From positions 1 to 64,000 of the forward strand of contig NZ_BJCL01000012.1 of NCBI RefSeq assembly GCF_005403045.1: DNA of 64,000 nucleotides, read 5' to 3'. Made by a program: the position numbers and the translations under genes. The notes under the pieces were generated by a model. The model ran no database searches. It had not been told where the DNA came from and saw nothing but the letters and a program-made list of their open reading frames with translations. This stretch comes from Pseudaquabacterium pictum (lineage in GTDB: Bacteria; Pseudomonadota; Gammaproteobacteria; Burkholderiales; Burkholderiaceae_C). Below are positions 859-16,513 of the stretch, one piece after another (position 1 is the first letter of the stretch; each line of letters starts with the position of its first letter).

Positions 859-2052
859 TCAGTGGCCGACCACCACCGGCACCTCCGCCGCTGGCGGCGT
901 GTTGCGGCTGCGGCCGCAGCGCACGATGCCGTCGATCACCACCATGCCCACGCCCGGGATGTCGCCGAGCTGCACGCTCTCCAGCAGCGTGCGGCCGGCG
1001 GTGTGCTGGGCGCGGTCGAGGAAGACGAAATCGGCATCGCGGCCGGGCTCGATCAGGCCGCAGTTCAGGCTGCGCAGCCGGGCGGTGTTGCCGGTGGCGA
1101 AGCAGAACACCAGCTCGGCCGGGATGTTGCCCAGCGACGAGAGCAGGGCGATCATCCGCAGCATGCCCAGGGGCTGCACGCCCGAGCCGGCCGGCCCGTC
1201 GGTGCCCAGGATCACCCGGTGCGGGCATTTCAGCTGCATGGCGGCCTGGGCCGCGGCGATGGCCACCTTCTCGTTGCCGTTGTGCACGATCTCGATGGCG
1301 CGCGGGCTCTTCTCGCACAGGTCGCACACATCCCGCTCGGGCAGGCTGGTGTGGCCGCCGTTGATGTGGCCGATGACGTCGGCATCGGCCTCCAGCACCA
1401 CGTCCTTGTCGATCAGGCCCGAGCCGGGGATGCTGGGCCCACCGGTGTGGATGGTGCTCTGGATGCCATGCTTGCGCGCCCAGGCCACCATCTCCTTCGC
1501 TTCGTAGCCGGCCTTGACCGAGCCCAGGCCCACTTCGCCCAGCAGCTTGACGCCGGCGGCGGCCAGCTCGGCGAAGTCGCCCTCGACCATGCCCTTCTCG
1601 ATGACGGGCGCGCCGGCCAGCACCTTCACGCCGCCGGGGCGGAAGTTGTCGAAGGCGCGCTGGGCGGTGATGGCCAGGGCCTTCAGGCCGACGATGTCCT
1701 TGGGCCGACCGGGCAGGTGCACCTCACCGGCGGAGATCATCGTCGTCACGCCGCCGTGCATGGTGCTGTCGATCCAGCCGATCTGGTTCTGCCGCGGTGT
1801 CCAGTCGCCGAAGACCGGGTGCACATGGCTGTCGATCAGGCCCGGCGCCACACAGGTGCCGCGGGCGTCGATCAGGGTGGTGGGAAGGGCGGTGTCGCAG
1901 TCCTTCTCGCGGCCCACCTGGGTGATGATGCCGTCGACCACCACGATGGTGTCGGCGTCCAGGATCGGCCGCTCCAGATCACCTGACAGCAGCAGCCCGA
2001 TGTTGCGGATCACCACCTTGCCCGACTTGCCACCTGCTGCCACATCTGCCAT
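859..2052 (-). CDS. ena: Enamidase-like amidohydrolase (6-oxo-1,4,5,6-tetrahydronicotinate ring opening)
   Basis: A 397-residue metal-dependent amidohydrolase. Visible motifs are the N-terminal beta-sandwich, the metal-binding HxH in GLIDSHVHP, later histidines in STIHTGG and GHINGGH, and the metal aspartate in ILGTDGPAGSG. The pattern and length match enamidase of nicotinate fermentation, a bifunctional Fe-Zn enzyme that hydrolyses 1,4,5,6-tetrahydro-6-oxonicotinate to ammonium and 2-formylglutarate. The 6-hydroxynicotinate reductase and nicotinate-hydroxylase homologues nearby make this specificity likely. I chose the ATG at 2052 (MADVAAGG), with GGAG just upstream. A longer start at 2109 would run through the operator-like palindrome at 2072-2089. 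The gene has its own regulated promoter region between tetR and its start. Confidence 0.85.
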   Translation of the reverse strand: MADVAAGGKSGKVVIRNIGLLLSGDLERPILDADTIVVVDGIITQVGREKDCDTALPTTLIDARGTCVAPGLIDSHVHPVFGDWTPRQNQIGWIDSTMHGGVTTMISAGEVHLPGRPKDIVGLKALAITAQRAFDNFRPGGVKVLAGAPVIEKGMVEGDFAELAAAGVKLLGEVGLGSVKAGYEAKEMVAWARKHGIQSTIHTGGPSIPGSGLIDKDVVLEADADVIGHINGGHTSLPERDVCDLCEKSPRAIEIVHNGNEKVAIAAAQAAMQLKCPHRVILGTDGPAGSGVQPLGMLRMIALLSSLGNIPAELVFCFATGNTARLRSLNCGLIEPGRDADFVFLDRAQHTAGRTLLESVQLGDIPGVGMVVIDGIVRCGRSRNTPPAAEVPVVVGH

Positions 2053-2071
2053 CGCTGCGCTCCGAAAGTTG

Positions 2072-2089
2072 ATGTAGCAAAGGCTACAT
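2072..2089. promoter_or_regulatory. Operator candidate 1 (perfect 7-4-7 palindrome) before enamidase
   Basis: ATGTAGC-AAAG-GCTACAT is a perfect inverted repeat in the 61-bp gap between the tetR stop and the enamidase start, 19 bp upstream of the ATG. The same TGTAGC-N4-GCTACA core recurs at 3710-3725 and, with one mismatch per arm, at 3732-3747 and 6361-6376. Repeated occurrence at promoter positions of one pathway suggests the binding site of the adjacent TetR-family regulator (inference). Confidence 0.7.
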
Positions 2090-2113
2090 GAAGCGGCGTG
2101 CCTGCTCAAGCGC

Positions 2114-2815
2114 TCAGGTGGCAGGCGGCGACAGGCAGACGGCGCGGCGCACCGCGTCGATGACGAACGCCTCCCAGTGCGCCAGTGCGGTGGGCGCCTC
2201 CAGGTTCTCGCCCAGGAAGGAGCTCAGCGTGAAGCGGTTGCTGAGGTAGAAGTAGGCCATCGACGCGATCATCAGGTACACGTCGCGCGCGTTCAGCGTG
2301 GGCCGGAACAGGCCCTGGGCGATGCCGGCCTGCAGCACGCTGTCGGTGATGGCCAGGGCGGGGGACGAATAGTCCTTGGCCCGCACGCTCTTGGCGATGT
2401 GCTTGCCGCGCAGCAGGTTCTCGCTGTTGAGCAAGGTGATGAACTCGGGGTTCTTCTGGTAGTAGGTCCAGACGAAGCGGATCATCGCGTCCAGCGCGGC
2501 CAGCGGCTGCGTGGTGTCCAGCACCAGGCCCTGCTCGGCCTCGTTGAAGCGGCGGTAGGTGTCCTCGATGACCGCGATGAACAACCCTTCCTTGCTGCCG
2601 AAGTAGTAGTAGATCATCCGGTCGTAGGACTTGGCCGCCTTGCTGATCTGCTCGACGCGGCCACCGGCAAAGCCGTGGCGGGCGAACACCTTGGTGGCCG
2701 CGCGCAGGATGGCATCACGGGTGGCCTGCGCGGCCAGCGCACGCACGCCGGGTGCGCGGCTGCCATCGGCCCGGGCGGGCCGGGCAGCGGGCTTCTTCCG
2801 GGCGGCGGTGGCCAT
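2114..2815 (-). CDS. TetR/AcrR-family transcriptional regulator of the island
   Basis: A 233-residue regulator. After a basic Ala/Arg-rich N-terminal extension (residues 1-30) comes the TetR helix-turn-helix: a TRDAILRAATKVFARHGF helix, then GGRVEQISKAAKSYDRMIYYYFGSKEGLF, which holds the recognition helix and the conserved YYYFGSKEGLF end. The C-terminal ligand-binding half is divergent, as usual. It sits between the ferredoxin reductase (24 bp upstream) and enamidase genes on the same strand, so fpr-tetR-ena may be co-transcribed, with enamidase also having its own operator. I infer that it represses the island and is released by nicotinate or an intermediate. The evidence is the four TGTAGC-type palindromes found only near these genes. 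Confidence 0.88.
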   Translation of the reverse strand: MATAARKKPAARPARADGSRAPGVRALAAQATRDAILRAATKVFARHGFAGGRVEQISKAAKSYDRMIYYYFGSKEGLFIAVIEDTYRRFNEAEQGLVLDTTQPLAALDAMIRFVWTYYQKNPEFITLLNSENLLRGKHIAKSVRAKDYSSPALAITDSVLQAGIAQGLFRPTLNARDVYLMIASMAYFYLSNRFTLSSFLGENLEAPTALAHWEAFVIDAVRRAVCLSPPAT

Positions 2816-2839: not shown

Positions 2840-3613
2840 TCACTGCTCGACGAAGGCGCGCTCGATCACGTACTCGCCGGGCGTGGTGGTGTTGCCTTCC
2901 TTGAAGTGGCGGGCTTCCAGCAGGGCCTTCAGGTCCTTCAGCAGCGCCGGGCTGCCGCAGATCATCACCCGGTCTTCGGCCGGGTTGATGTTGGGCAGGC
3001 CGAGGTCGCTGAACATCTTGCCGCTGTCGAGCAGATCGGTGATGCGGCCCATGTTGCGGTAGGTCTCGCGGGTGACCGTGGGGTAGTACAGCAGCTGCTG
3101 GCTGATCATCTCGCCCAGGAACTCGTGCTTGGGCAGTTCCTGCGTGATGTAGTCGTGGTAGGCCAGCTCGTTGACCTGGCGCACGCCGTGCACCAGCACC
3201 ACCTGCTCGAACTTCTCATAGGTCTCGGGGTCGCGGATGATGCTCATGAACGGCGCCAGGCCGGTGCCGCTGCCCATCAGGTACAGGCGCTTGGCCGGCA
3301 GCAGGTAGTCGATCAGCAGCGTGCCGGTGGGCTTGTTGCCGACGATGACCTTGTCGCCTGGCTGGATGTGCTGCAGCCGGCTGGTCAGCGGGCCGTCCTG
3401 CACCTTGATGCTGAGGAACTCCAGCGTCTCTTCGTAGTTGGCGCTGACCACGCTGTAGGCACGCAGCAGCGGCTTGCCGTCCACCCGCAGGCCGATCATC
3501 GTGAAATGGCCGTTCTTGAACCGCAGCGTGGTGCCGCGGGTGGTGGTGAAGCTGAACAACCGGTCGGTCCAGTGGTGGACGGTGAGGACGGTTTCTTCGT
3601 TGAAGGCGCTCAT
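2840..3613 (-). CDS. fpr: Ferredoxin--NADP(+) reductase
   Basis: A 257-residue FAD enzyme of the bacterial Fpr type. Key parts are the FAD-binding RAYSVVSAN motif (R-x-Y-S), the NADP(H)-binding glycine-rich GSGTGLAPFMSI, a CGSP-type segment (VMICGSPALL) and an aromatic-poor C-terminus (YVIERAFVEQ) of the subclass seen in proteobacteria. It moves electrons between NADPH and ferredoxin or flavodoxin. It is divergent from the 6-hydroxynicotinate reductase gene, an enzyme that needs low-potential ferredoxin electrons, so I infer that it supplies that reduction. No ferredoxin gene is visible in the island. The start at 3613 (MSAFNEE) is the family-typical one. The longer frame upstream would run towards the promoter region. 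Confidence 0.9.
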   Translation of the reverse strand: MSAFNEETVLTVHHWTDRLFSFTTTRGTTLRFKNGHFTMIGLRVDGKPLLRAYSVVSANYEETLEFLSIKVQDGPLTSRLQHIQPGDKVIVGNKPTGTLLIDYLLPAKRLYLMGSGTGLAPFMSIIRDPETYEKFEQVVLVHGVRQVNELAYHDYITQELPKHEFLGEMISQQLLYYPTVTRETYRNMGRITDLLDSGKMFSDLGLPNINPAEDRVMICGSPALLKDLKALLEARHFKEGNTTTPGEYVIERAFVEQ

Positions 3614-3709
3614 GGTGGTGCGGCAGTGTTCGGAAAGGGTGCGGTCCGGGCACCAGGCCGGCGCGGCGGTGGACGCCCCCCGCTGCGCTTGCATGGCCTG
3701 CGGCCTGAA

Positions 3710-3852: not shown

Positions 3853-5460
3853 ATGTCGGAGCATGAGCACACCAAGACCGATGGTCTGGGTGAATCGTTG
3901 GCGGTGGCGCCGGCGGCCCCGGTGGCCGACTGGCGTGCCGCGCCACGCAACCAGCGCATGGCCGCGCACAAGATCGAATGCAATGCCTGCCCGGTGCTGT
4001 GCCAGATCAGCGAGGGCAAGGTGGGCGCCTGCGACCGCTATGCCAACCACGGCGGCACCCTGGTGCGCGTGGACCCGGTGCTGCTCGTGCGCCAGCGGTT
4101 GGATGCCGCGGCCGGTGATGCTGCTTCAGCCGATCTGGTGCCCTTCCTGCCGCAGGGCGCGCCGGCCGAGGCACTGGATGCCGATGCCCCGTCGCTGTTC
4201 GTCACCGCGGTGGGTGCCGGCACCACCTACCCCGACTACAAGCCGGCGCCGTTCATCGTGTCCAGCCAGCTGCAGGGTGTGGACATGGTGACCGTGGTCA
4301 CCGAGGGCATCTTCAGCTACTGCAGCCTGAAGCTGAAGATCGACACCGACCGCTGGCTGGGCCCCGAGCAGGCCAACGTGCGCTGCAACGGCGAGGTGGT
4401 GGGCCATGTCACCACCGCCGAGTACGGCAGCCAGATGCTGAGCCTGGGCGGTGTGCACCACATCACCGGCGGCAGCAAGAAGGAAGGCCGCGTCACCGTC
4501 GACATGCTGTGCGCGATGGGCAACCACCAGGCGGTGGATCTCAGCATCGACGGCGGCGCCCAGGTGCGGGTGCAGGCCGGCCAGCCGCCCATCGTCAACG
4601 GCGTGCCCGAGCAGCGCATGCGGCTGGGTTGCGGCTCGGCCACCATCGGCATCTTCGCCCAGCAGTTCGCCGGGCTGGTGGACGAGGTGGTGGTGGTCGA
4701 CGACCACATCACCGGCGTGCTCACCGAGCACCAGGCCGGCCGCTGCCTCAGCCTGAGGCCGTCGGGCCTGAAGATCCGTGGCCGCAAGAGCACGCCGGGC
4801 CGCTACTTCCAGGTGGCCAACCCCGGCACCGGCTGGGGCGGCACCGACATCGCCGACCCGCTGTCGATCCTGGAGCCCTGGGATGCCGACGAAGCCTGGC
4901 CGGGCCAGCGCCTGCTGATGGTCAGCACCACCGGCGAGCATGCGGCCTGGTTCGAGCTGGACGCGGCGCTGCAGCCGCAGCCCGCGGCCATGCCGGCGGC
5001 GGTGCAGGCCATCGTCGACCGCATCGGCGAGAACTGCGAGCCGGCGCTGTGCACCGTGCTGTTCCTCGCCGGCGCGGGCGGCAGCCTGCGCGCCGGCGTG
5101 ACCGACAACCCGGTGCGCCTCACGCAAGCCATCAAGCAGAGCCTGGTCAACGTGACCTGCGGCGGCGCGCCGGCCTATGTGTGGCCCGGCGGCGGCATCA
5201 CCGTGATGGTGGATGTGCTGCGCATGCCGGCCCACAGCTTCGGCACCGTGCCCACGCCGGCCATCGTGGCGCCGATCGAGTTCAGCATGCGGCTGGGCGA
5301 CTACCAGCGCCTGGGCGGCCACATGGCCTATGTGCGCACGCTGGGACAGACGCTGGCCACCGGTGCGTGGCATGGCGATGGGGCACCCGTGGCCCGCCGC
5401 ATCGCCGATGCGGCACCGGCCAACCCCTGGCCGCTGGGGCGCGCCCCGCTGCTGGGCTGA
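3853..5460 (+). CDS. hnr: 6-hydroxynicotinate reductase
   Basis: A 535-residue protein resembling 6-hydroxynicotinate reductase of nicotinate fermenters, which reduces 6-hydroxynicotinate to 1,4,5,6-tetrahydro-6-oxonicotinate with ferredoxin. The N-terminus carries a Cys cluster, C43-x2-C46-x3-C50-x9-C60, in KIECNACPVLCQI and GACDRY, fitting a [4Fe-4S] site. Later Gly-rich segments include PGTGWGGTDIADP and LAGAGGSLRAG. The characterised Eubacterium enzyme has several Fe-S clusters and a covalently bound flavin. The start at 3853 has GGAGGG upstream. The stop overlaps the next gene (TGATG), so translation is probably coupled to the ApbE-like protein. It is divergent from fpr, the presumed electron source. 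I identified it from the Cys pattern, length and context; I did not run an alignment. Confidence 0.82.
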   Translation: MSEHEHTKTDGLGESLAVAPAAPVADWRAAPRNQRMAAHKIECNACPVLCQISEGKVGACDRYANHGGTLVRVDPVLLVRQRLDAAAGDAASADLVPFLPQGAPAEALDADAPSLFVTAVGAGTTYPDYKPAPFIVSSQLQGVDMVTVVTEGIFSYCSLKLKIDTDRWLGPEQANVRCNGEVVGHVTTAEYGSQMLSLGGVHHITGGSKKEGRVTVDMLCAMGNHQAVDLSIDGGAQVRVQAGQPPIVNGVPEQRMRLGCGSATIGIFAQQFAGLVDEVVVVDDHITGVLTEHQAGRCLSLRPSGLKIRGRKSTPGRYFQVANPGTGWGGTDIADPLSILEPWDADEAWPGQRLLMVSTTGEHAAWFELDAALQPQPAAMPAAVQAIVDRIGENCEPALCTVLFLAGAGGSLRAGVTDNPVRLTQAIKQSLVNVTCGGAPAYVWPGGGITVMVDVLRMPAHSFGTVPTPAIVAPIEFSMRLGDYQRLGGHMAYVRTLGQTLATGAWHGDGAPVARRIADAAPANPWPLGRAPLLG

Positions 5461-6365
5461 TGCCGATGTGGCAGGCGCAACGCGCAGTGCTGCCAGGCGG
5501 GCGCTGGCACTTCCAGCATGGCCCGATCGACATCGTGATCGCCGCCGAAGGCGCCGCCGATGCGGTGGCCGCGGCGCATGCAGCTGCCTGGGCCTGCTTC
5601 CAGCCGCTGCTGACCGATCTGGTGGCCGAGCTGCCATTGCTGCGCCAGCCGGTGGCCGCAGCAGGCACCAACCCGTTGCAGGGTGCTGTGGCGCGGCGCA
5701 TGTGGGCCGCCTGTGCGCCGCTGCGCGCTGCGGCCGACGGCTTCCTCACGCCGATGGCTGCCGTGGCCGGTGCGGTGGCGCAGGAATTGATCACCGCCTA
5801 CCAGCGGCCGGGCATCACCCGCGCCTGGGTGAACAACGGCGGCGACATCGCGCTGCACCTGGCGCCCGGCCAGTCGGCCCGGGTGGGGCTGGTGGCTGAC
5901 CTGTCGCGTTTTGATGCCGATGCCCTGGCGCGCACCGCGGCGGGGACGCTGCGCACCGATGCGGGCTTCACCGTGGCGCACGCCAGCCTGGTGCGGGGCG
6001 TGGCCACCAGCGGCTGGCGCGGCCGCAGCCACTCGCTGGGCATCGCCGACAGCGTGACGGTGCTGGCGGCCACCGCGGCGCAGGCCGATGCCGCCGCCAC
6101 GGTGATCGCCAATGCGGTCAATCTGGACGATGCCCGCATCCAGCGTGCGCCCGCCAGCAGCCTGCGCGACGACAGCGACCTGGGCGAGCGGCTGGTCACC
6201 GTGGCCGTGCCGCCCTTGCCGGCCGCTGCGGTGCAGCAGGCCTTGCAGGCCGGCCTGCAACTGGCGCAGCGGCTGCAGGCGCAGGGCCTGGTGCAGGCGG
6301 CGCTGCTGGCCTGTCAGGGTTCTCTCGCTCGGCTGGCGCCGGTGGGCGCGCTAGAGTTGGTGTAG
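5460..6365 (+). CDS. UPF0280 (ApbE-like) family protein
   Basis: A 301-residue UPF0280 protein. The family shares the fold of ApbE, the enzyme that attaches FMN covalently to target proteins. Features typical of the family are the N-terminal MWQAQRAVLPGGRWHFQHGPIDI, a central VAGAVAQELI helix, the WVNNGGDIAL strand (corresponding to the NxGGD of ApbE) and a VATSGWRGRSHSLGIADSVTVLA segment with Ser/Asp residues near the flavin site in ApbE. The start overlaps the stop of hnr by one base, so the pair is translationally coupled. Because the characterised Hnr holds a covalent flavin, a flavin-insertion role is attractive. That is inference: UPF0280 function is not established. Operator 4 overlaps the 3' end. 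Confidence 0.85.
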   Translation: MPMWQAQRAVLPGGRWHFQHGPIDIVIAAEGAADAVAAAHAAAWACFQPLLTDLVAELPLLRQPVAAAGTNPLQGAVARRMWAACAPLRAAADGFLTPMAAVAGAVAQELITAYQRPGITRAWVNNGGDIALHLAPGQSARVGLVADLSRFDADALARTAAGTLRTDAGFTVAHASLVRGVATSGWRGRSHSLGIADSVTVLAATAAQADAAATVIANAVNLDDARIQRAPASSLRDDSDLGERLVTVAVPPLPAAAVQQALQAGLQLAQRLQAQGLVQAALLACQGSLARLAPVGALELV

Positions 6366-6388: not shown

Positions 6389-7030
6389 ATGAACCTCATC
6401 GACATTCGACGTGTCTTCACCCAGGTGGAAGACATCCACCATGAAGGCGGTCCACGCGCCGCGCAGCCGCTGCGGCGCGGCGCCATCGCCGCGGTGCTGA
6501 CCAACCCGTATGCCGGTCGCTACGAGCCCGACATCCTGCCGATGATGGAGGCGCTGAACCGCGTGGGCCTGGACATGGCGCGCCGCCTGCTGGCCGCCAT
6601 GGCGGTGCCGGTGGAGGCGATCCAGGGCTACGGCAAGGGCGCGATCATCGGCGCCGCGGGTGAACTGGAGCACGGTGCGCTGTGGCATGTGCCCGGCGGC
6701 TATGCCATGCGCGAGCTGCTGGGCTGGAAGGGCGACGCCGCGGCCTACAAGCGTGGCGAAGGCAGCAGCGGCCAGAGCGGCAACGCGCTGGCCATCGTGC
6801 CCAGCACCAAGAAGGTGGGCGCGCCCGGCACCGCGCTGGACGTGCCGCTGACCCACATCAACGCCAGCTATGTGCGCAGCCATTTCGACGCGATGGAAGT
6901 GCGTGTGCCCGGCGCGCCCAAGCCCGACGAGCTGGTCGTGATCCTGGCGATGAGCTGCGGCGCGCGGGTGCATGCCCGGGTCGGCGGCCTGGCGGCCGAC
7001 GCCATCGCCAAGTGGGATGGACAACGCTGA
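6389..7030 (+). CDS. Amino acid synthesis (PF06684/DUF1185) family protein, copy 1
   Basis: A 213-residue protein of PF06684. Hallmarks are the RGAIAAVLTNPYAGRYEPDI segment, the GYGKGAIIGAAGELEHGA loop and the PLTHINASYVRSHFDAMEVRV strand. The biochemical role of the family is not established; its name comes from an indirect genetic association. It is the first of two tandem paralogues, 21 bp apart, in what looks like the same transcript as the transport and hydroxylase genes. Their place in a ring-degradation island suggests a catabolic job, such as hydrolysis or isomerisation of a pathway intermediate, but nothing in the sequence proves this. Copy 1 has an insertion (GWKGDAAAYKRGEGSSGQSGN) that copy 2 lacks. 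Confidence 0.85.
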   Translation: MNLIDIRRVFTQVEDIHHEGGPRAAQPLRRGAIAAVLTNPYAGRYEPDILPMMEALNRVGLDMARRLLAAMAVPVEAIQGYGKGAIIGAAGELEHGALWHVPGGYAMRELLGWKGDAAAYKRGEGSSGQSGNALAIVPSTKKVGAPGTALDVPLTHINASYVRSHFDAMEVRVPGAPKPDELVVILAMSCGARVHARVGGLAADAIAKWDGQR

Positions 7031-7051
7031 ATATCACCAGGAGAGCAAGCC

Positions 7052-7636
7052 ATGCCCGCCGAGATCCGCAAGCTGATTGTCCAGGTCGACGAAACCCGCC
7101 GCGAGATGGGCCGCGACGTGAACCCGCCCACCCGCCGCGCGCTGGCGATGGCGGTGATCACCAACCCGTTCGCTGGCCGCTATGAAGACAACCTCGATGC
7201 GCTGATCGCCATCGGCGAGGAACTGGGCGCGCTGCTGGGTGACAAATGCGTGCAGGCCCTGGGCATCCAGCCCGGCCAGGCGCAGAGCTACGGCAAGGCC
7301 GCCATCGTCGGCGAGGCCGGCGAGCTGGAGCATGCCGCCGCCATCCTGCACCCCAAGCTCGGCGCGCCGCTGCGCAAGGCGGTGGAGAAGGGCGCCGCCC
7401 TGGTGCCCAGCGCCAAGAAGCAGGGCGGCGTGGGCACCGCGGTGGACGTGCCGCTGGGCCACAAGGATGCCGCCTTCGTGCGCAGCCACTTCGATGCCAT
7501 CGAGGCCCGCGTGGCCGATGCCCCCCGCGCCAACGAGATCGTGGTGGCGGTGGCTGTCACCGACAGCGGCCGGCCGCTGCCCCGCGTTGGTGGCCTGCAG
7601 GCGCATGAGGTCATCGGCCAGGACGGCCTGCGCTAG
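7052..7636 (+). CDS. Amino acid synthesis (PF06684/DUF1185) family protein, copy 2
   Basis: A 194-residue paralogue of the preceding gene with the same landmarks: MAVITNPFAGRYEDNL, SYGKAAIVGEAGELEHAAA and PLGHKDAAFVRSHFDAIEARV. It is preceded by AGGAGAG, a good ribosome-binding site. Keeping two diverged copies side by side suggests a heteromeric complex or two related substrates (inference). The next gene, the ABC binding protein, starts 43 bp downstream, so co-transcription is likely. Confidence 0.86.
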   Translation: MPAEIRKLIVQVDETRREMGRDVNPPTRRALAMAVITNPFAGRYEDNLDALIAIGEELGALLGDKCVQALGIQPGQAQSYGKAAIVGEAGELEHAAAILHPKLGAPLRKAVEKGAALVPSAKKQGGVGTAVDVPLGHKDAAFVRSHFDAIEARVADAPRANEIVVAVAVTDSGRPLPRVGGLQAHEVIGQDGLR

Positions 7637-7679: not shown

Positions 7680-8885
7680 ATGAACCGCAAGCACTTCCTG
7701 GCTGCCCTGGCCACCCTGACCGCCGGCCTGGCGTCCACCGGCGCCCAGGCCCAGGGCGGACCGATCAAGATCGGCGAGGTCAACAGCTACAAGGTGCAGC
7801 CCGCCTTCCTGGAGCCCTACAAGAAGGGCATGGAGCTGGCCGTCGAGGAGATCAACGCCGCCGGCGGCCTGCTGGGCCGCAAGGTGGAACTGATCACCCG
7901 TGACGACAACGGCAACCCGGGTGATGCGGTGCGCGCCGCCGAAGAGCTGGTCTCGCGCGAGAAGGTGGACGTGCTGACCGGCGCGTTCCTCAGCAACATC
8001 GGCCTGGCGCTGACCGATTTCGCCAAGCAGAAGAAGTTCTTCTACCTGGCCAGCGAGCCGCTGACCGACAAGATCGTCTGGCAGAACGGCAACCGCTACA
8101 CCTACCGGCTGCGGCCCAGCACCTACATGCAGTCGGCCATGCTGGTGCCTGAAGCTGCCAAACTGAAGAAGAAGCGCTGGGCCATCGTCTACCCCAACTA
8201 CGAATACGGCCAGAGCGCCGCGGCCACCTTCAAGCAACTGCTGAAGGCGGCCCAGCCGGATGTGGAGTTCGTCGCCGAGCAGGCGCCGCCGCTGGGCAAG
8301 CTGGACGCCGGCAGCGTGGTGCAGGCCCTGGCCGACGCCAAGCCCGATGCGATCATGAACGTGCTGTTCGGCGCCGACCTGGCCAAGTTCGTGCGCGAGG
8401 GCAACACCCGCGGCCTGTTCCAGGGCCGCGAGGTGGTCAGCATGCTGACCGGTGAGCCGGAGTATCTGGATCCGCTGAAGGACGAGACACCCAATGGCTG
8501 GATCGTCACCGGCTACCCCTGGTACGGCATCCAGACGCCGGAGCACAAGGCCTTCTACCTGGCCTACCACCGCAAGTTCAACGACTACCCGCGCCTGGGC
8601 TCGGTGGTGGGCTATTCGGCCATCAAGAGCCTGGCCGCCGGCATCACCAAGGCCAAGAGCACCGACACCGAGAAGCTGATCGCCGCCTTCAAGGGCCTGG
8701 AGCTGATGACGCCGTTCGGCAAGGCGGTGTACCGCCCGCAGGACAACCAGAGCACCATGGGCGCCTTTGTCGGCAAGACCAAGAACGACAAGGGCCGCGG
8801 CACGATGGTCGACTACGTCTACCTCGACGGCGCCAAGTTCCAGCCGACGGATGCAGAGGTCAAGAAGCTCCGCCCGGCTGAATGA
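7680..8885 (+). CDS. livK: Branched-chain-amino-acid-type ABC transporter, periplasmic binding protein
   Basis: A 401-residue substrate-binding protein of the Leu/Ile/Val-binding (Peripla_BP_6) family. It begins with a Sec signal peptide (MNRKHFLAALATLTAGLASTGAQAQ). Typical parts are PIKIGEVNSY, the GMELAVEEINAAGGLLGRKVEL helix-turn, DDNGNPGDAVRAAEEL and a WAIVYPNYEYGQ segment. Proteins of this family bind amino acids but also aromatic acids, amides and urea. Position between the ring-degradation genes suggests uptake of nicotinate or a related acid (inference). The permease gene follows after a 129-bp gap filled by a structured repeat. Confidence 0.9.
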   Translation: MNRKHFLAALATLTAGLASTGAQAQGGPIKIGEVNSYKVQPAFLEPYKKGMELAVEEINAAGGLLGRKVELITRDDNGNPGDAVRAAEELVSREKVDVLTGAFLSNIGLALTDFAKQKKFFYLASEPLTDKIVWQNGNRYTYRLRPSTYMQSAMLVPEAAKLKKKRWAIVYPNYEYGQSAAATFKQLLKAAQPDVEFVAEQAPPLGKLDAGSVVQALADAKPDAIMNVLFGADLAKFVREGNTRGLFQGREVVSMLTGEPEYLDPLKDETPNGWIVTGYPWYGIQTPEHKAFYLAYHRKFNDYPRLGSVVGYSAIKSLAAGITKAKSTDTEKLIAAFKGLELMTPFGKAVYRPQDNQSTMGAFVGKTKNDKGRGTMVDYVYLDGAKFQPTDAEVKKLRPAE

Positions 8886-8970
8886 CCCCCCCCGAAGCGC
8901 CTGCGGCGCTCCCCCCCAGGGGGGCGCACCCAGCGGCCCGGCGAAGCCGGTTCCGCGGCTGCCGCTGGGT
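8886..8970. repeat. G/C-rich palindromic intergenic element (REP-like)
   Basis: Directly after the livK stop is a structured block: C-run, GAAGCGCCTGCGGCGCT, C-run/G-run, then nested hairpins. The outer arms are CCCAGCGGC (8929-8937) and GCCGCTGGG (8961-8969), and the inner stem-loop is CCGGC-GAA-GCCGG (8938-8950). The GCGCCTGCGGCGC core also appears as tandem units at 62863-62895. Similar C/G-run elements are common between genes in Burkholderiales. It may stabilise the livK mRNA end and lower expression of the permease genes (inference). Confidence 0.6.
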
Positions 8971-9014
8971 TGGTCGGCATCCAGAAGTTCTGCCAACGTG
9001 ATCACGCCGCGTTC

Positions 9015-10897
9015 ATGACCTTTTCAGCTTTCATCGTCCAGCTGCTCAACGGGCTGGCCGGTGCCTCGTCGCTGTTCCTGGTGGCTGCGGGCCTGTCGCT
9101 GATCTTCGGCGTCACCCGCATCGTCAACTTCGCCCACGGCTCGTTCTTCATGCTGGGCGTGTACATCGCGTACACGCTGGTGGAGAAGCTGGGCGCTGGC
9201 CTGGGCTTCTGGCCGGCGCTGCTGCTGTCGGCGCTGGCGGTGGGCGCCATCGGCGCGGCGGTGGAGGTGTTGCTGCTGCGCCGCATCTACCGCGCGCCCG
9301 AGCTGTTCCAGCTGCTGGCCACCTTTGCCCTGGTGCTGGTGATCAAGGACGCGGCGCTGTGGCTGTGGGGGGCGGAAGACCTGCTGGGCCCTCGGGCGCC
9401 GGGCCTGCAGGGCTCGGTCGACATCCTGGGGCGGCGCTTCCCCACCTACGACCTGTTCCTGATCGTGGTGGGCCCGGCCGTGCTGGGCCTGCTGTGGCTG
9501 CTGCTCACCCGCACCCGCTGGGGCACGCTGGTGCGTGCCGCCACGCAGGACCGCGAGATGGTCGGCGCGCTGGGCGTCAACCAGGCCTGGCTGTTCACCA
9601 GCGTGTTCGCGCTGGGCGCGATGCTGGCCGGCCTGGGCGGCGCGCTGCAGCTGCCGCGTGAGCCGGCCTCGCTCAACCTGGATCTGCTGACCATCGGCGA
9701 TGCCTTCGTGGTGGTGGTGGTCGGCGGCATGGGCTCGATCCCCGGCGCCTATGTGGCCGCGCTGCTGATCGCCGAGATCAAGGCGCTGTGCGTCGGCATC
9801 GGCAATGTCAGCGCCTTCGGCATCGAGTTCAACTTCAGCAAGCTCACCCTGGTCGCCGAGTTCCTGGTGATGGCGGTGGTGCTGGTGTGGCGGCCCTGGG
9901 GCCTGCTGGGCAGGCCACAGGCGGCCACCCGCAACAACGCGGCGGTGGAGCCGCCGCTGCGCGCCGCCGGCAAGCCGCTGCTGATGGCCGCCGCCGCGCT
10001 GGCCATCGCCCTGGTGGCGCTGCCGGTGGCCACTGCCGGCAGCCCGTACGTCACCGTGCTGGCCATCGACCTGCTGACGGCCGCGCTGTTCGCCGCCAGC
10101 CTGCACTTCATCATGGGCCCGGCGGGCATGCACAGCTTCGGCCATGCGGCCTACTTCGGCTTGGGCGCCTATGCCGCCGCGCTGCTGATGCTGAAGGCCG
10201 GCTGGCCGATGGAGGCCGCGCTGCTGGGCGCGCCGCTGGTGGCCGGCCTGGGGGCGGTGGTGTTCGGCTGGTTCTGCGTGCGGCTGTCGGGTGTGTACCT
10301 GGCGATGCTGACGCTGGCGTTCGCCCAGATCGTCTGGTCCATCACCTTCCAGTGGGACGACTTCACCGGCGGCAGCAACGGCCTCACCGGCGTGTGGCCG
10401 GCTGAATGGCTGACCGACAAGACGGCCTACTACTTCGCCACGCTGGTGCTGGTGGCTGGTGGTGTGCTGGCGCTGCGCCGGGTGCTGTTCTCGCCCTTCG
10501 GCCTGGCCATGCGCGCCGGGCGCGATTCGCCGCTGCGGGCCGATGCCATCGGCATCGACATCAAGCAGATCCAGTGGCTGGCCTTCGTGCTGGCGGCGGT
10601 GGCCGCCGGCCTGGCGGGCAGCCTGTACGCCTTCAGCAAGGGCAGCATCTCGCCCGACAGCATGGCCGTGGGCAAGAGCGTCGACGGCCTGGTGATGGTG
10701 CTGCTGGGCGGCGTGCAGACGTTGACCGGCCCGGTGGTCGGCGCCGTCAGCTTCACCTGGCTGCAGGACACCGTGGCCCGCAGCACCGACTACTGGCGCG
10801 CGTTGCTGGGCGGCATCATCCTGCTGCTGGTGCTGGCCTTCCCGCAAGGCATCGCCGGGTTCGTGGGCCAGCTGTTCGACCGCCGGAAGGCCGTGTG

Positions 10898-10898
<1 letters not shown>
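9015..10898 (+). CDS. livHM: Fused LivH-LivM ABC transporter permease
   Basis: A 627-residue membrane protein joining two permeases that are usually separate. Residues 1 to about 300 are LivH-like (FIVQLLNGLAGASSLFLVAAGLSLIFGVTRIVNFAHGSFFMLG, and GDAFVVVVVGGMGSIPGAYVAAL as the cytoplasmic EAA-type loop). About residues 320-627 are LivM-like (HFIMGPAGMHSFGHAAYFGLGAYAAAL, and SVDGLVMVLLGGVQTLTGPVVGA as the second loop). The linker is PQAATRNNAAVEPP. The start at 9015 (MTFSAFIVQLL) fits LivH. The stop overlaps livG by one base (TGATG). The fusion fixes permease stoichiometry at 1:1 and is seen in some proteobacterial importers of aromatic acids and amides. Confidence 0.9.
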
Positions 10899-11661
<763 letters not shown>

Positions 11662-11665
<4 letters not shown>

Positions 11666-12390
11666 CCGATGCGTTGTTGCAGGTCGACGGCCTGAATGCC
11701 TGGTACGGTGCCGCGCAGATCCTCTTCGGCGTCGGCCTGGAAGTGCGCCGCGGCGAGGTGGTGGCACTGATGGGCCGCAACGGTGCCGGCAAGAGCACCA
11801 CGCTGAAGGCCACCATGGGCATGCTGCAGCGGCGCAGCGGGCAGGTGAGTTTCATGGGCCGCGACATCGCCCGCGCCGAGCCGCATGCCATCGCCCGCGC
11901 CGGCCTGGGCTATGTGCCGGAGGACCGCCGCATCTTCAGCGACCTGACGGTGCTGGAGAACCTCGACGTCGGCCGCCAGCCAGCCCGCACCTGGCCCGAT
12001 GGCACCGCAGCGCCCACCTGGACGCCGGAGGCGCTGTTCCAGCTGTTCCCCAACCTGGGCGAGATGCCGCACCGCCCCGGCGGCCGCATGAGCGGCGGCG
12101 AGCAGCAGATGCTGACCGTCGCCCGCACGCTGATGGGCAACCCCTTCCTGGTGCTGCTGGATGAGCCCAGCGAGGGCGTGGCGCCGCTGATCGTCGAGCA
12201 GATGGCGCAGATGATCATCGCGCTCAAGCGCCAGGGCGTCAGCATCCTGCTGTGCGAGCAGAACATGCACTTCGCCGAGCTGGTCAGCGACCGCGCCTAT
12301 GTGCTGGAGAAGGGCCAGATCCGCTACACCGGCACCATGGCCGAGCTGGCTGCCGACGACGCGGTGCGTCGGGCCTACCTGTCGATGTGA
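11662..12390 (+). CDS. livF: ABC transporter ATP-binding protein (LivF type)
   Basis: A 242-residue ATPase with Walker A GRNGAGKST, the LivF-type LGYVPEDRRIFSDLTVLENL segment, the signature MSGGEQQML, Walker B LLDEPSEGVAPLIVEQM and the switch histidine region LCEQNMHFA. It starts inside the livG stop (ATGA overlap). The five liv functions are therefore encoded as livK, livHM, livG and livF. It is followed at once by the hydroxylase small-subunit gene (17-bp gap), which ties transport to the first catabolic step. Confidence 0.93.
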
Positions 12391-12407
12391 GCGTCTCGAA
12401 AGCCGCC

Positions 12408-12890
12408 ATGCCTCAGGCCGTTGAACTGCGGGTGAACGGCCGGGTGCAGACGCTGGCGGTCGACGGCCGCGTGCCGCTGCTGCAGGTGCTGCGCAACGAC
12501 CTGGGCCTGAACGGCCCCAAGTACGGCTGCGGCCTGGGCGAGTGCGGCGCCTGCGCGGTGCTGATCGACGGTGTGGCCGCGCGGTCCTGCAGCATCCCGC
12601 TGGATGGCGTGGCCGGCCGTGCCGTCACCACGCTGGAAGGCCTGGGCACGGCCGAGCGCTTGCACCCGGTGCAGCAGGCCTTCATCGACACCCAGGCCGC
12701 CCAGTGCGGCTACTGCCTCAACGGCATGCTGATGGCCACCGTGGCGCTGTTGCAGCGCCATCCGCGGCCCACCGATGCCCAGGCCCGCACAGCACTGCAG
12801 CACCATTTGTGCCGTTGCGGCACGCACCTCGAGATCCTGGCCGCGGTGCAGCGGGCGGCCGATCTGATGTCAGCCGGCGCCCCACCATGA
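12408..12890 (+). CDS. nicA: Nicotinate dehydrogenase-type [2Fe-2S] subunit
   Basis: A 160-residue iron-sulfur subunit of a xanthine-dehydrogenase-family hydroxylase. The N-terminal plant-type [2Fe-2S] domain has YGCGLGECGACAV plus RSCSIPL. The C-terminal helical domain has the second cluster in QCGYCLNGM and CRCGTHLEI. NicA of Pseudomonas putida nicotinate hydroxylase has the same size and design. It passes electrons from the molybdenum site to the cytochrome domains of NicB. I chose ATG 12408. A GTG at 12387 overlapping the livF stop is an alternative. The substrate assignment rests on the Hnr and enamidase homologues upstream. Related enzymes oxidise isoquinoline or aldehydes. Confidence 0.88.
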   Translation: MPQAVELRVNGRVQTLAVDGRVPLLQVLRNDLGLNGPKYGCGLGECGACAVLIDGVAARSCSIPLDGVAGRAVTTLEGLGTAERLHPVQQAFIDTQAAQCGYCLNGMLMATVALLQRHPRPTDAQARTALQHHLCRCGTHLEILAAVQRAADLMSAGAPP

Positions 12891-15800
12891 GCTTCCGCGC
12901 GGCTGCCTGGCGCACCCGGGCCGACTTCCGTGCCGCCACCGGCGTGCTGCTGGTGCTGCGTGATCCACCGCCACCGCCGCCGCCCGCCAGGGGCCAGCCG
13001 CCGGCGGTACCGGCCAACCCGGCCGAAGGACAGGAAGTGCTGCTGGCCCTGGTCGACGAGGGCGACGGCCGGCTGACCGCCACCGCGCTGGCCGGCCATG
13101 TCGACCTGGGCACCGGCATCCGCACCGCCTACGGCCAGATCGTGGCCGAGGAACTGGGCCTGCCGATGGCTGCCGTGCAGGTGCTCCTGGGCGACACCGC
13201 CCGCGCGCCCAACCAGGGCCCGACCATCGCCAGCAGCTCGCTGCAGCTGCATGCCCAGCCGCTGCGGGCGGCGGCGGCGCAGGCCCGGGCCTGGCTGCTG
13301 GCGCAGGCAGCAGCGCAGTGGGGCGTGCCGGCCGACCAGCTGCGCAGCAATGGCGACGCCTGGCTGGCGCCCGATGGGCAGCGCTTGCCGATGGCCCAGC
13401 TGGTGGCCGGCAGCCATGCCGAGTTGCTGCTCGACCTGGCCACGCCCACCAAGCCGCCGGCCGAGTACACCGTGGTCGGCATCAGCGCGCCGCGGGTCGA
13501 CCTCACCGCCAAGGCCACCGGTGGCGAGGTCTATGTGCACGATGTGCGCCGCCCCGGCATGCTGCACGGCCGGGTGGTGCGCCCGCCTTATGCCGGGCTG
13601 GACGCCGGCCCCTTCGTCGGCACCAGCCTGCTGGCGGTGGACGAGGCCTCGATCGCCCAGGTGCCCGGCATCGTGAAGCTGGTGGTGCAGGGCGACTTCA
13701 TCGGCATCGTCGCCGAGCGGGAAGACCAGGCCGAGGCGGCGATGCACGCGCTGCGGGTGCAGTGGCAGCCGCACATGCCCACCGCACTGCCGCTGGACGA
13801 CATGGCGGCCGCCCTCAGCGCCCATCCGTCCACGCCGCGTGTGGTCTCCGAGAGCGGCGACGTGGATGCCGCCATCGACGCCAGCAGCCGCGCCTTTGCG
13901 CGCACCTACGTCTGGCCCTACCAGCTGCATGCCTCCATCGGCCCCAGCTGCGCGGTGGCCGAATGGCATGGTGACCGCGCGACCGTCTGGGCCGGCACCC
14001 AGAACCCGCATGCGCTGCGGGCCGACCTGGCCAAGCTGACCGGCCTGCCCGACACCGCCATCGACGTGGTGCGGCTGGAAGCCTCGGGCTGCTACGGCCG
14101 CAACAGTGCCGACGACGTGGCTGCCGACGCGCTGCTGCTGGCCCGCGCCGCCGGCGCGCCGGTGCGGGTGCAGCTCACGCGGGAACAGGAACACGCCTGG
14201 GAGCCCAAGGGCGCCGCCCAGCTGATGACGGTGCGCGGTGGCCTGGCCGACGACGGCACGCCGCTGGGCTATGACTTTTCCACCAGCTACCCCAGCAACG
14301 GCGCGCCCACGCTGGCCCTGCTGCTCACCGGCACGGTGCCGGCGGTGGCCCAGGCCTTCGAGATGGGCGACCGCACGTCGGTGCCACCGTACGCCTATGC
14401 CGACCAGCGCATCACCGTGCACGACATGGCGCCCATCCTGCGCGCCAGCTGGCTGCGCGGCGTGTCGGCCCTGCCCAACAGCTTTGCCCACGAGAGCTAC
14501 ATCGACGAGCTGGCCACCGCCGCCGGTGTCGACCCGGTGGCCTACCGCCTGCGCCACCTGCCAGACCAGCGCGCCGCCGAGCTGCTGCGCGCCACCGCCG
14601 ACAAGGCGGGCTGGAAGCCGCACACCGCGCCGCAGCAGCAGCCACCCGACGGTGACTGGCTGCGCGGGCAGGGCGTGGCCTATGCCCGCTACATCCACAG
14701 CAAGTTTCCCGGCTACGGTGCCGCCTGGGCCGCCTGGGTGGCCGATGTGCAGGTGCACAAGGTCACCGGCGAGGTGCATGTCAGCCGGGTGGTGGTGGGC
14801 CACGACGCCGGCCTGATGGTCAACCCCAAGGGCGTGGAACAGCAGGTGCACGGCAATGTGCTGCAGACCACCAGCCGGGCGCTGAAGGAGCAACTGCGGG
14901 TGGACACCACCACCGGCACCGTGGCCACGCGGGACTGGGGCAGCTACCCCATCCTCAGCTTCCGCGAGGTGCCGGTGGTCGAGGTGCTGCTGATGCCGCG
15001 CCCTGGCGAGCCGCCGCTGGGTGCTGGTGAATCCGCCTCGGTGCCCGGCACCGCGGCCATCGCCAATGCGATCTTCGATGCCACCGGCGTGCGCTTCCGT
15101 AACCCGCCGTTCACGCCCGAGGTGGTGCGTGCCGCGATCAACCCGCTGCCGGCGCCGCCGCCGGTGGCCGCTCCGGCGCCACCACCGCCGCCCGTGGTGG
15201 CCGATCCGCAGCGCCGCCGCAAGCCGGTGTGGGCCATCGCCGGCGCCCTTGCCACTGCGGCGCTGGGCCTGGGCGCTGCGCTGCTGGGCCTGCGGCCGGG
15301 CGCCATCGCACCGGTGCAGGCCAGCGCTGCCGGCCTGTACAGCCCGCAAGTGCTGGAGCGCGGCCGCCAACTGGCTGCGCTGGGCAACTGCGTGGCCTGC
15401 CACACCGCAGAGGGCGGCGTGCCCAACGCCGGCGGCCGGCCGATGGCCACGCCCTTCGGCACCATCCACAGCACCAACCTCACGCCCGATCCGGCCACCG
15501 GCATCGGCGCCTGGAGCTTCAGCGCCTTCCAGCGGGCGATGCGAGAGGGCATCTCGCGCGACGGCCACCACCTCTACCCGGCCTTCCCCTATACGGCCTT
15601 CACCCAGGCCAGCGACGACGACCTTCAGGCGCTCTATGCCCACCTGATGGCCCAGCCGGCGGTGGTCAACGCCGTGCCCGAGACACGCCTGGCCTTCCCC
15701 TACAACATCCGCCCGCTGATGGGCCTGTGGAACGCGCTGCACCACCAGAGCGGCCCGGTGGCGCCGGTGGCCGGGCAGAGTGCGCTGTGGAACCGCGGCG

Positions 15801-16513
15801 CCGCCCTGGTCAACGGCCTGGGCCACTGCACCGCCTGCCACACCCCGCGCGATGCGCGGGGTGGCGAGCTGGCCCGCAGCGCCTACCTGGGTGGCGCCCT
15901 GGTCGACGGCTGGGAGGCGCCGCCGCTGGGCGCGCTCAGCCGCGGCCCGGTGCCCTGGACCGAAGACGCGATGGCCCAGTACCTGCGCACCGGCCACCAT
16001 GCCCACCACGGCATCGCCGGCGGGCCGATGGCGCCGGTGGTGCAGGCCCTGGCCCAGGCCGATGAGGCCGACGTGCGGGCGATGGCGCACTACCTGGTGG
16101 CATTGCAGCCGCCGGCGCCGGCTGTGGATGCCCAGGCGCTGGTGCGGCAAGCCGCCGCCCAGCCCGGCCTGCTGCCTGGCCCGGCGCAGCGGCTGTTCAC
16201 CACCGCCTGCGGCGCCTGCCACCATGATGGTGACGGCCCGCCCGTGCTGGGGCTGAACCAGCCGCTGGCGCTGAATGCCAACCTGCACAGCACCCGGCCC
16301 GACAACCTGCTGCGCACCATCGTCGAGGGCCTGCAGAGGCCGGCCTTCCCGGCCATCGGCCACATGCCGGCCTTCGGCCAGGCACTGGACGACCGGCAAC
16401 TGGTGGAGCTGGCCGCCTGGATGCGCCAGCGCTTCGCGCCGCAGCAGCCGCCCTGGGCCGACCTGCCAGCTGCGGTGGCGCGGGTGCGGGCCGCGGTGGC
16501 CCACACGCCTTGA
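12887..16513 (+). CDS. nicB: Nicotinate dehydrogenase-type molybdopterin subunit with three c-type haem domains
   Basis: A 1208-residue fusion, close to the 1187 residues of P. putida NicB. Residues 1 to about 760 form the xanthine-oxidase-type molybdopterin domain, with the catalytic glutamate likely E715 in GAGESASVPGTAA. A Pro-rich linker and a hydrophobic segment (VWAIAGALATAALGLGAALL, about 785-805) anchor it. The C-terminal third has three haem motifs: CVACH (835-839), CTACH (981-985) and CGACH (1108-1112). It hydroxylates the pyridine ring (expected: nicotinate to 6-hydroxynicotinate) and hands electrons to the respiratory chain instead of NAD. The start overlaps the nicA stop (ATGA). 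A Pro-run (DPPPPPPPARG) near residue 30 is unusual. Confidence 0.9.
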   Translation: MSFRAAAWRTRADFRAATGVLLVLRDPPPPPPPARGQPPAVPANPAEGQEVLLALVDEGDGRLTATALAGHVDLGTGIRTAYGQIVAEELGLPMAAVQVLLGDTARAPNQGPTIASSSLQLHAQPLRAAAAQARAWLLAQAAAQWGVPADQLRSNGDAWLAPDGQRLPMAQLVAGSHAELLLDLATPTKPPAEYTVVGISAPRVDLTAKATGGEVYVHDVRRPGMLHGRVVRPPYAGLDAGPFVGTSLLAVDEASIAQVPGIVKLVVQGDFIGIVAEREDQAEAAMHALRVQWQPHMPTALPLDDMAAALSAHPSTPRVVSESGDVDAAIDASSRAFARTYVWPYQLHASIGPSCAVAEWHGDRATVWAGTQNPHALRADLAKLTGLPDTAIDVVRLEASGCYGRNSADDVAADALLLARAAGAPVRVQLTREQEHAWEPKGAAQLMTVRGGLADDGTPLGYDFSTSYPSNGAPTLALLLTGTVPAVAQAFEMGDRTSVPPYAYADQRITVHDMAPILRASWLRGVSALPNSFAHESYIDELATAAGVDPVAYRLRHLPDQRAAELLRATADKAGWKPHTAPQQQPPDGDWLRGQGVAYARYIHSKFPGYGAAWAAWVADVQVHKVTGEVHVSRVVVGHDAGLMVNPKGVEQQVHGNVLQTTSRALKEQLRVDTTTGTVATRDWGSYPILSFREVPVVEVLLMPRPGEPPLGAGESASVPGTAAIANAIFDATGVRFRNPPFTPEVVRAAINPLPAPPPVAAPAPPPPPVVADPQRRRKPVWAIAGALATAALGLGAALLGLRPGAIAPVQASAAGLYSPQVLERGRQLAALGNCVACHTAEGGVPNAGGRPMATPFGTIHSTNLTPDPATGIGAWSFSAFQRAMREGISRDGHHLYPAFPYTAFTQASDDDLQALYAHLMAQPAVVNAVPETRLAFPYNIRPLMGLWNALHHQSGPVAPVAGQSALWNRGAALVNGLGHCTACHTPRDARGGELARSAYLGGALVDGWEAPPLGALSRGPVPWTEDAMAQYLRTGHHAHHGIAGGPMAPVVQALAQADEADVRAMAHYLVALQPPAPAVDAQALVRQAAAQPGLLPGPAQRLFTTACGACHHDGDGPPVLGLNQPLALNANLHSTRPDNLLRTIVEGLQRPAFPAIGHMPAFGQALDDRQLVELAAWMRQRFAPQQPPWADLPAAVARVRAAVAHTP

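Follow-up and report, generated by a model that had tools for sequence, protein, structure and literature searches.

Is the ApbE-like protein encoded directly behind a 6-hydroxynicotinate reductase gene the enzyme that attaches flavin to that reductase? The question is raised by a stretch of 64,000 nucleotides from Pseudaquabacterium pictum (contig NZ_BJCL01000012.1, positions 1 to 64,000 of the forward strand), here called the window, in which the reductase gene hnr is followed by a gene of the UPF0280 family. The 6-hydroxynicotinate reductase (HnR, EC 1.3.7.1), which reduces a product of vitamin breakdown, reportedly carries a covalent flavin in E. barkeri according to work from 2006, and an initial annotation of the window had raised the UPF0280 protein as the flavin-attachment enzyme of HnR. 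Our analysis indicates that this protein is probably a dedicated maturation or accessory factor of the ApbE superfamily and an obligate partner of HnR. Covalent attachment of flavin to HnR is the highest-rated single mechanism for such a factor, and we put it forward tentatively. The two genes and their junction are as follows.

3853..5460, + strand: hnr, encoding HnR (535 amino acids); ATG at 3853, stop codon TGA at 5458-5460
5460..6365, + strand: UPF0280/COG2122 gene (NF003322), encoding a protein of 301 amino acids with the ApbE-superfamily fold; ATG at 5460-5462
5458..5462, + strand: TGATG, with one base common to the hnr stop and the UPF0280 start

The overlap was read correctly in the initial annotation, the common base being 5460. 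The downstream protein matches the NCBIfam model NF003322 (PRK04334.1-2) with 368.8 bits (cut-off 290), and scores under the cut-offs of three other NCBIfam subfamily models. The NF003322 model is also matched by 20/20 aligned UPF0280 homologues (E <= 0.001). The HnR label is given because close homologues are annotated as 6-hydroxynicotinate reductase and because of the cluster context. The protein is 70% identical over 99% to the HnR of CP099606.1, and relatives with about 59% identity or more occur in 26 plasmid records, in which most of the annotated ones are named HnR. A passage of PMC3511419 gives a Bradyrhizobiaceae HnR homologue as 42% identical to the E. barkeri enzyme.

UPF0280 is found in every HnR-positive genome of three samples, all of them drawn from the Pseudomonadota, as is the rest of the co-occurrence evidence. 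In a family sample of 150 genomes, the gene is present in 24/24 HnR-positive and 0/126 HnR-negative genomes. The corresponding counts are 28/28 and 0/162 in a class sample of 190 genomes (the class of G363), and 32/32 and 0/366 in a phylum sample of 398 genomes. Fisher tests on these counts give p values of 2.6e-28, 3.9e-34 and 6.0e-48, respectively, to be read with the related genomes not being independent trials. The samples overlap in at least seven positives, and their union comprises 77 HnR-positive genomes, all with UPF0280; three of the genomes counted as UPF0280-positive (G104, G652 and G672) have the gene cut by contig ends. The initial annotation had named frequent hnr islands without any ApbE-like gene as the observation that would speak against its proposal; such islands were sought, and none was found among these HnR-positive genomes. 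Two apparent exceptions in HnR-negative genomes were rejected: a canonical ApbE accounts for the match in G166 (E 3.4e-5), and the match in G692 (E 2.6e-7) falls within an SDR gene.

In a scan of genome contigs, the best 80 of 593 relatives are accompanied by UPF0280 in 80/80 cases. Paraburkholderia xenovorans LB400 also has an hnr-UPF0280 locus (L072). Of the plasmid records, 27 contain UPF0280 and 26 contain HnR, and 26/26 HnR records carry UPF0280. The lone orphan UPF0280 gene is on plasmid pBPS33-1 of Hydrogenophaga sp. BPS33 (L135 8687-9849), behind an IS1071 transposase. The bases between IS1071 and this gene encode a remnant of an hnr tail, in which 29-38 residues match the C-terminal part of HnR at 50-59% identity (best E 2.3e-7). 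The orphan is therefore an hnr-UPF0280 pair truncated by IS1071. In the search, pBPS33-1 gave four UPF0280 places. No relatives were found in viral contigs or phages. In G165 (L170, G165:C1:2969811-2971264), hnr occupies two consecutive open frames, through either a natural split or a frameshift, and UPF0280 still follows.

The gene order is equally uniform. UPF0280 is directly downstream of hnr and on the same strand in 130/130 loci, which are what remains of 134 once four that duplicate the window or are a fragment have been removed. Among the 127 junctions with an assignable start, 38 are overlapping (28 by four bases and 4 by one) and 103 are within 20 nucleotides; the widest gap is 545 nucleotides. 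The products of hnr and UPF0280 almost certainly work together.

The UPF0280 protein is predicted to have the two-domain T-fold of the ApbE/Ftp family (PF02424), whose members transfer flavin mononucleotide (FMN) from flavin adenine dinucleotide (FAD) to proteins. An AlphaFold2 model built from 67 sequences has a predicted local distance difference test score (pLDDT) of 93.5 and a predicted template modeling score of 0.92. Its best match among solved folds is DVU1097 (2o34; Z 19.7, root-mean-square deviation 3.4, 212 residues aligned), and 19 ApbE/Ftp entries match at Z 13.8-15.8 over 203-218 residues, including Treponema Ftp with Z 15.8 over 216 residues. The next T-fold protein, urate oxidase, reaches Z 8.2. 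When the UPF0280 profile is compared by hhalign with a profile of 15 ApbE sequences, the probability is 96.3% (E 1.8e-9), and the Pfam ApbE model is matched weakly by 16/20 homologues (best E 2e-6). The shared fold that had been suspected from the sequence is thus borne out by both profile comparison and predicted structure.

Several residues of the ApbE active site are also represented. In the hhalign alignment, S184 corresponds to the serine of the ApbE TSG motif, and D210 and T214 correspond to the metal-site Asp and Thr of ADAxAT. Seven UPF0280 residues (D129, T183, S184, R189, S190, S192 and D210) are invariant in 129/129 rows, D197 is present in 128/129, and position 214 is T or S in 129/129. 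Such strict conservation of polar residues implies a functional site that is seemingly under selection. No cysteine is invariant, the best column having 98/129, and inspection of the sequence by eye found no obvious signal peptide. The papers searched do not mention UPF0280 by name and have nothing related under DUF375, DVU1097 or 2O34.

HnR itself has few recognizable relatives. It matches no Pfam family at the cut-off, has no Protein Data Bank relative at significance, and shows no relation to UPF0280 when the two profiles are compared. The AlphaFold2 model of HnR is poor (pLDDT 64.8); Foldseek gives no match under E 0.027, and VIA-align gives a best Z of 3.0, with GcvT-type barrels at about residues 155-245 among the matches. 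In keeping with these barrels, a weak match to the Pfam model GCV_T_C, the C-terminal barrel of GcvT, is found at residues 158-195 (window 4324-4437) in 20/20 rows (best E 0.0029). Passages of PMC5861303, PMC5746545 and PMC12472160 say nothing of an HnR flavin.

The N-terminal part of HnR contains a cysteine cluster. Residues 43-60 (window 3979-4032) form the arrangement C-x2-C-x3-C-x9-C, within a wider pattern C..CP..C.I..G..G.C.R..N. The four cysteines C43, C46, C50 and C60 are kept in 135/135 rows that have letters there. The start of the AmmeMemoRadiSam radical S-adenosylmethionine model matches this segment in 18/20 homologues (best E 0.0011), and the similarity suggests that HnR and AmmeMemoRadiSam may have a metal-binding module in common.

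Across a 136-row alignment, the invariant residues of HnR include these four cysteines as well as C157, C260, C395, H203, H285, H293, Y126, Y129, Y156 and Y191. The latter ten could serve as sites of an 8-alpha linkage to Cys, His or Tyr, so that HnR might flavinylate itself, with the UPF0280 protein acting elsewhere. A self-catalytic route is described for His-, Cys- and Tyr-linked FAD in section 3 of PMC12052999. However, this explanation would leave an obligate ApbE-fold gene beside hnr without a purpose, and we regard it as unlikely.

In our main reading, the UPF0280 protein is an ApbE-superfamily member of the cytosol whose most likely task is to mature HnR. It may do so by loading or attaching the flavin of HnR, in an ApbE-like, metal-dependent reaction performed by an active site that has diverged. 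Flavin would then be accepted by a Ser or Thr within a degenerate motif of HnR, and two conserved candidates are T205-G-G-S208, in which position 208 is S in 130 rows and T in 6, and D284-H-I-T287-G-V-x-T291, in which position 291 is T in 98 rows and S in 38. The data show that the two genes are coupled and exclusive to each other, that UPF0280 has the ApbE fold, that S184, D210 and T214 are conserved, and that the histidine block of ApbE is missing. We infer three things here: that UPF0280 acts on HnR, that flavin is the cofactor, and that the bond is covalent. According to the parts of PMC12052999 that concern acceptor changes (section 8), replacement of the ApbE motif Asp by Ala has minor effects, and replacement of Ala by Val leaves about 50% flavinylation.

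Several observations weigh against flavin attachment by UPF0280. The canonical acceptor motif D-x-x-[ST]-G-A-[ST] occurs in 0/136 aligned HnR rows, bearing out what the initial annotation had noticed for the HnR of the window. The two candidate motifs are leads only, because they are within or near chance by composition and were chosen after inspection: [ST]G[AGSV][ST] arises in 21% of composition shuffles of HnR (P 0.21), and D..[ST]G..[ST] in 3.4% (P 0.034), both patterns having been picked post hoc. The fold of HnR is unpredicted, and a docking argument is therefore impossible. No fusion of HnR and UPF0280 was seen in the loci examined, and co-inheritance of the cluster alone could keep two genes of one pathway together. 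On the enzyme side, the HiiDPrtG (HxxDPxxG) block that contains the catalytic histidine of ApbE, and in which all 15 ApbE rows share the His, Pro and Gly, is deleted from UPF0280 in the profile alignment. The lysine of the ApbE KGY motif is likewise not seen, UPF0280 having AAVAGAVAD in place of AIAKGYAVD at the margin of the hhalign alignment.

The significance of the deleted block is clearest by comparison with Vibrio cholerae ApbE, for which section 5 of PMC12052999 describes a triad of Asp285, Ser241 and His257, the last being the general base. By our reading of the alignment, S184 and D210 of UPF0280 would be the equivalents of Ser241 and Asp285, so that UPF0280 would retain two triad residues but not the base; with the block absent, UPF0280 has no equivalent of His257. 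This agrees with a remark in PMC5764234 that the homology of COG2122 stops short of the flavin-binding region of ApbE.

The same deletion is suggestive of a non-enzymatic partner, which could be an HnR subunit or a chaperone for loading a non-covalent flavin or the iron-sulfur cluster, with the fold kept as a scaffold after the chemistry was lost. The near-stoichiometric gene layout, with UPF0280 directly downstream of hnr, would suit such a role. Also, the mean distance is larger for UPF0280 (0.383) than for HnR (0.236), and such faster evolution is common among accessory proteins. However, the polar residues of the putative active site are more strictly conserved than a pure scaffold would need, and we consider this alternative possible although doubtful.

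The proposal of the initial annotation, that UPF0280 is the flavin-attachment enzyme of HnR, thus stands in part. The functional pairing seen in the co-occurrence data, the ApbE fold, the metal-site Asp and Thr, and the TSG serine speak for it; the absent histidine block, the unseen KGY lysine and the lack of a canonical acceptor speak against it. Because of the missing block and acceptor, and because published genetics of other COG2122 members points to homocysteine, flavin attachment is one of several possible roles for UPF0280.

A dedicated pairing of this kind resembles the cytosolic ApbE of Klebsiella pneumoniae, which, in the account given in section 5 of PMC12052999, belongs to the same superfamily and serves one soluble reductase, fumarate reductase. 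In contrast, the Klebsiella protein is a canonical ApbE that acts on a canonical motif. The ApbE/Ftp transferases in general resemble UPF0280 in fold, TSG serine and ADAxAT residues; they differ in that UPF0280 lacks the HiiDPrtG block, in that neither the KGY lysine nor an obvious signal peptide was seen in it, and in that its partner lacks the D-x-x-[ST]-G-A-[ST] motif.

The only canonical ApbE gene of the P. pictum genome (L150, G000:C4:114771-115577) is located elsewhere, beside a NosR-like gene. This position is fitting for a flavin transferase dedicated to NosR, a name that is our reading of the open reading frame. The idea that HnR is served by this canonical ApbE was rejected, as it does not explain the linkage of HnR with UPF0280.

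The COG2122 proteins DVU1097 and MA1715 belong to the same family as the UPF0280 protein (profile match to 2o34, E 1.9e-10) and have the AAVAG, NGGD, GxSxSxG and ADAAAT signatures in common with it. These proteins function in the DUF39 pathway, and the UPF0280 protein might, as in Desulfovibrio and Methanosarcina, handle sulfide or persulfide for homocysteine formation together with DUF39, a role that would have nothing to do with HnR. In its favor, the best fold match is DVU1097, COG2122 is described in a passage of PMC5764234 as needed for homocysteine synthesis in D. vulgaris, and MA1715 is termed a sulfur trafficking protein in a passage of PMC12068725. However, DUF39 (PF01837) is absent from the P. 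pictum genome and from 398/398 Pseudomonadota genomes, in a search that detected control carriers (3/14), and it is not among the Pfam matches of HnR. The present UPF0280 protein tracks hnr instead and falls in a separate NCBIfam subfamily. It has no invariant cysteine, the cysteine of DVU1097 aligning with V181. Because DUF39 is absent, hnr is the partner and no cysteine is invariant, we reject the homocysteine role as extremely improbable for this subfamily.

A broader speculation, decidedly unlikely at present, treats the COG2122/UPF0280 proteins in general as one class of ApbE relatives that are cytosolic and lack the histidine. One ferredoxin-linked reductase of otherwise unrecognized fold would be matured by each subfamily, through flavin attachment at a non-canonical motif. 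This reductase would be HnR in bacteria that degrade nicotinate, and in Desulfovibrio and methanogens it would be the DUF39/NIL-ferredoxin homocysteine synthase. If so, then the homocysteine enzyme would be an unrecognized flavoprotein.

With this pairing, a gene that is widely conserved but has lacked an explanation becomes a maturation factor that can be tested on one named enzyme. A clue to the biochemistry of COG2122, of which another branch is needed for homocysteine formation, would follow as well. If UPF0280 attaches flavin, then it would be a transferase of the ApbE superfamily that works without the canonical histidine and on a new acceptor motif, which is relevant to flavin-tagging tools. 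If it does not, then the ApbE fold is separated from ApbE chemistry.

The neighborhood of hnr and UPF0280 is an aerobic nicotinate-degradation cluster, comprising the genes listed below. Counts refer to 74 long loci of at least 15 kilobases with HnR (L135 and L181 were excluded, as they have no HnR match), and some absences in these counts are due to cut flanks.

859..2109, - strand: amidohydrolase, probable enamidase for the reduced ring, a function suggested by context; 63/74
2114..2815, - strand: TetR-family regulator; 60/74
2840..3616, - strand: fpr, ferredoxin/flavodoxin-NADP reductase-like, divergent; the open reading frame opens further upstream, at 3694; 45/74
6389..7030, + strand: first DUF1185 (AA_synth) gene; 73/74
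7052..7636, + strand: second DUF1185 (AA_synth) gene; 73/74
7680..12390, + strand: branched-chain-type ABC transporter (binding protein, permease and two ATPases), from annotated homologues; permease in 71/74
12390..16513, + strand: probable nicotinate dehydrogenase ((2Fe-2S) subunit and molybdopterin-dependent subunit), from annotated homologues

Because the whole neighborhood is devoted to nicotinate degradation, the UPF0280 protein might be a catabolic enzyme of the pathway, acting for example on a product or isomer of the reduced ring and placed beside hnr through a common operon. Linkage of the DUF1185 pair is nearly as tight (73/74). However, the order of HnR and UPF0280 is kept in 74/74 long loci despite rearrangement of the other cluster genes, and the pair stays together, with UPF0280 immediately downstream, where the enamidase, transporter or dehydrogenase genes move, flip or are lost. 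Also, we know of no small-molecule catabolic member of the ApbE/COG2122 superfamily. A catabolic function is quite unlikely on this evidence.

Pairwise distances among 60 loci point the same way as gene order. UPF0280 correlates best with HnR (r 0.90), and its correlations with the other five genes are 0.58-0.84. This result is supportive only, because the correlation of HnR with the enamidase reaches 0.89.

The fpr product is likely to supply electrons. In the nicotinate clusters of Azorhizobium caulinodans and Bradyrhizobiaceae SG-6C, passages of the source paper give the unknown proteins no role; the present host differs in being of the Burkholderiales type. The DUF1185 family is linked in part of a 2010 structure paper (PMC2954203) to branched-chain amino-acid metabolism, by way of transporter neighbors. 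Two loci, L187 and L188, keep UPF0280, and the DUF1185 pair was not detected in their 16 kilobases. In the window, the DUF1185 pair (6389-7636) occurs in a nicotinate context, which suggests a role in the nicotinate pathway.

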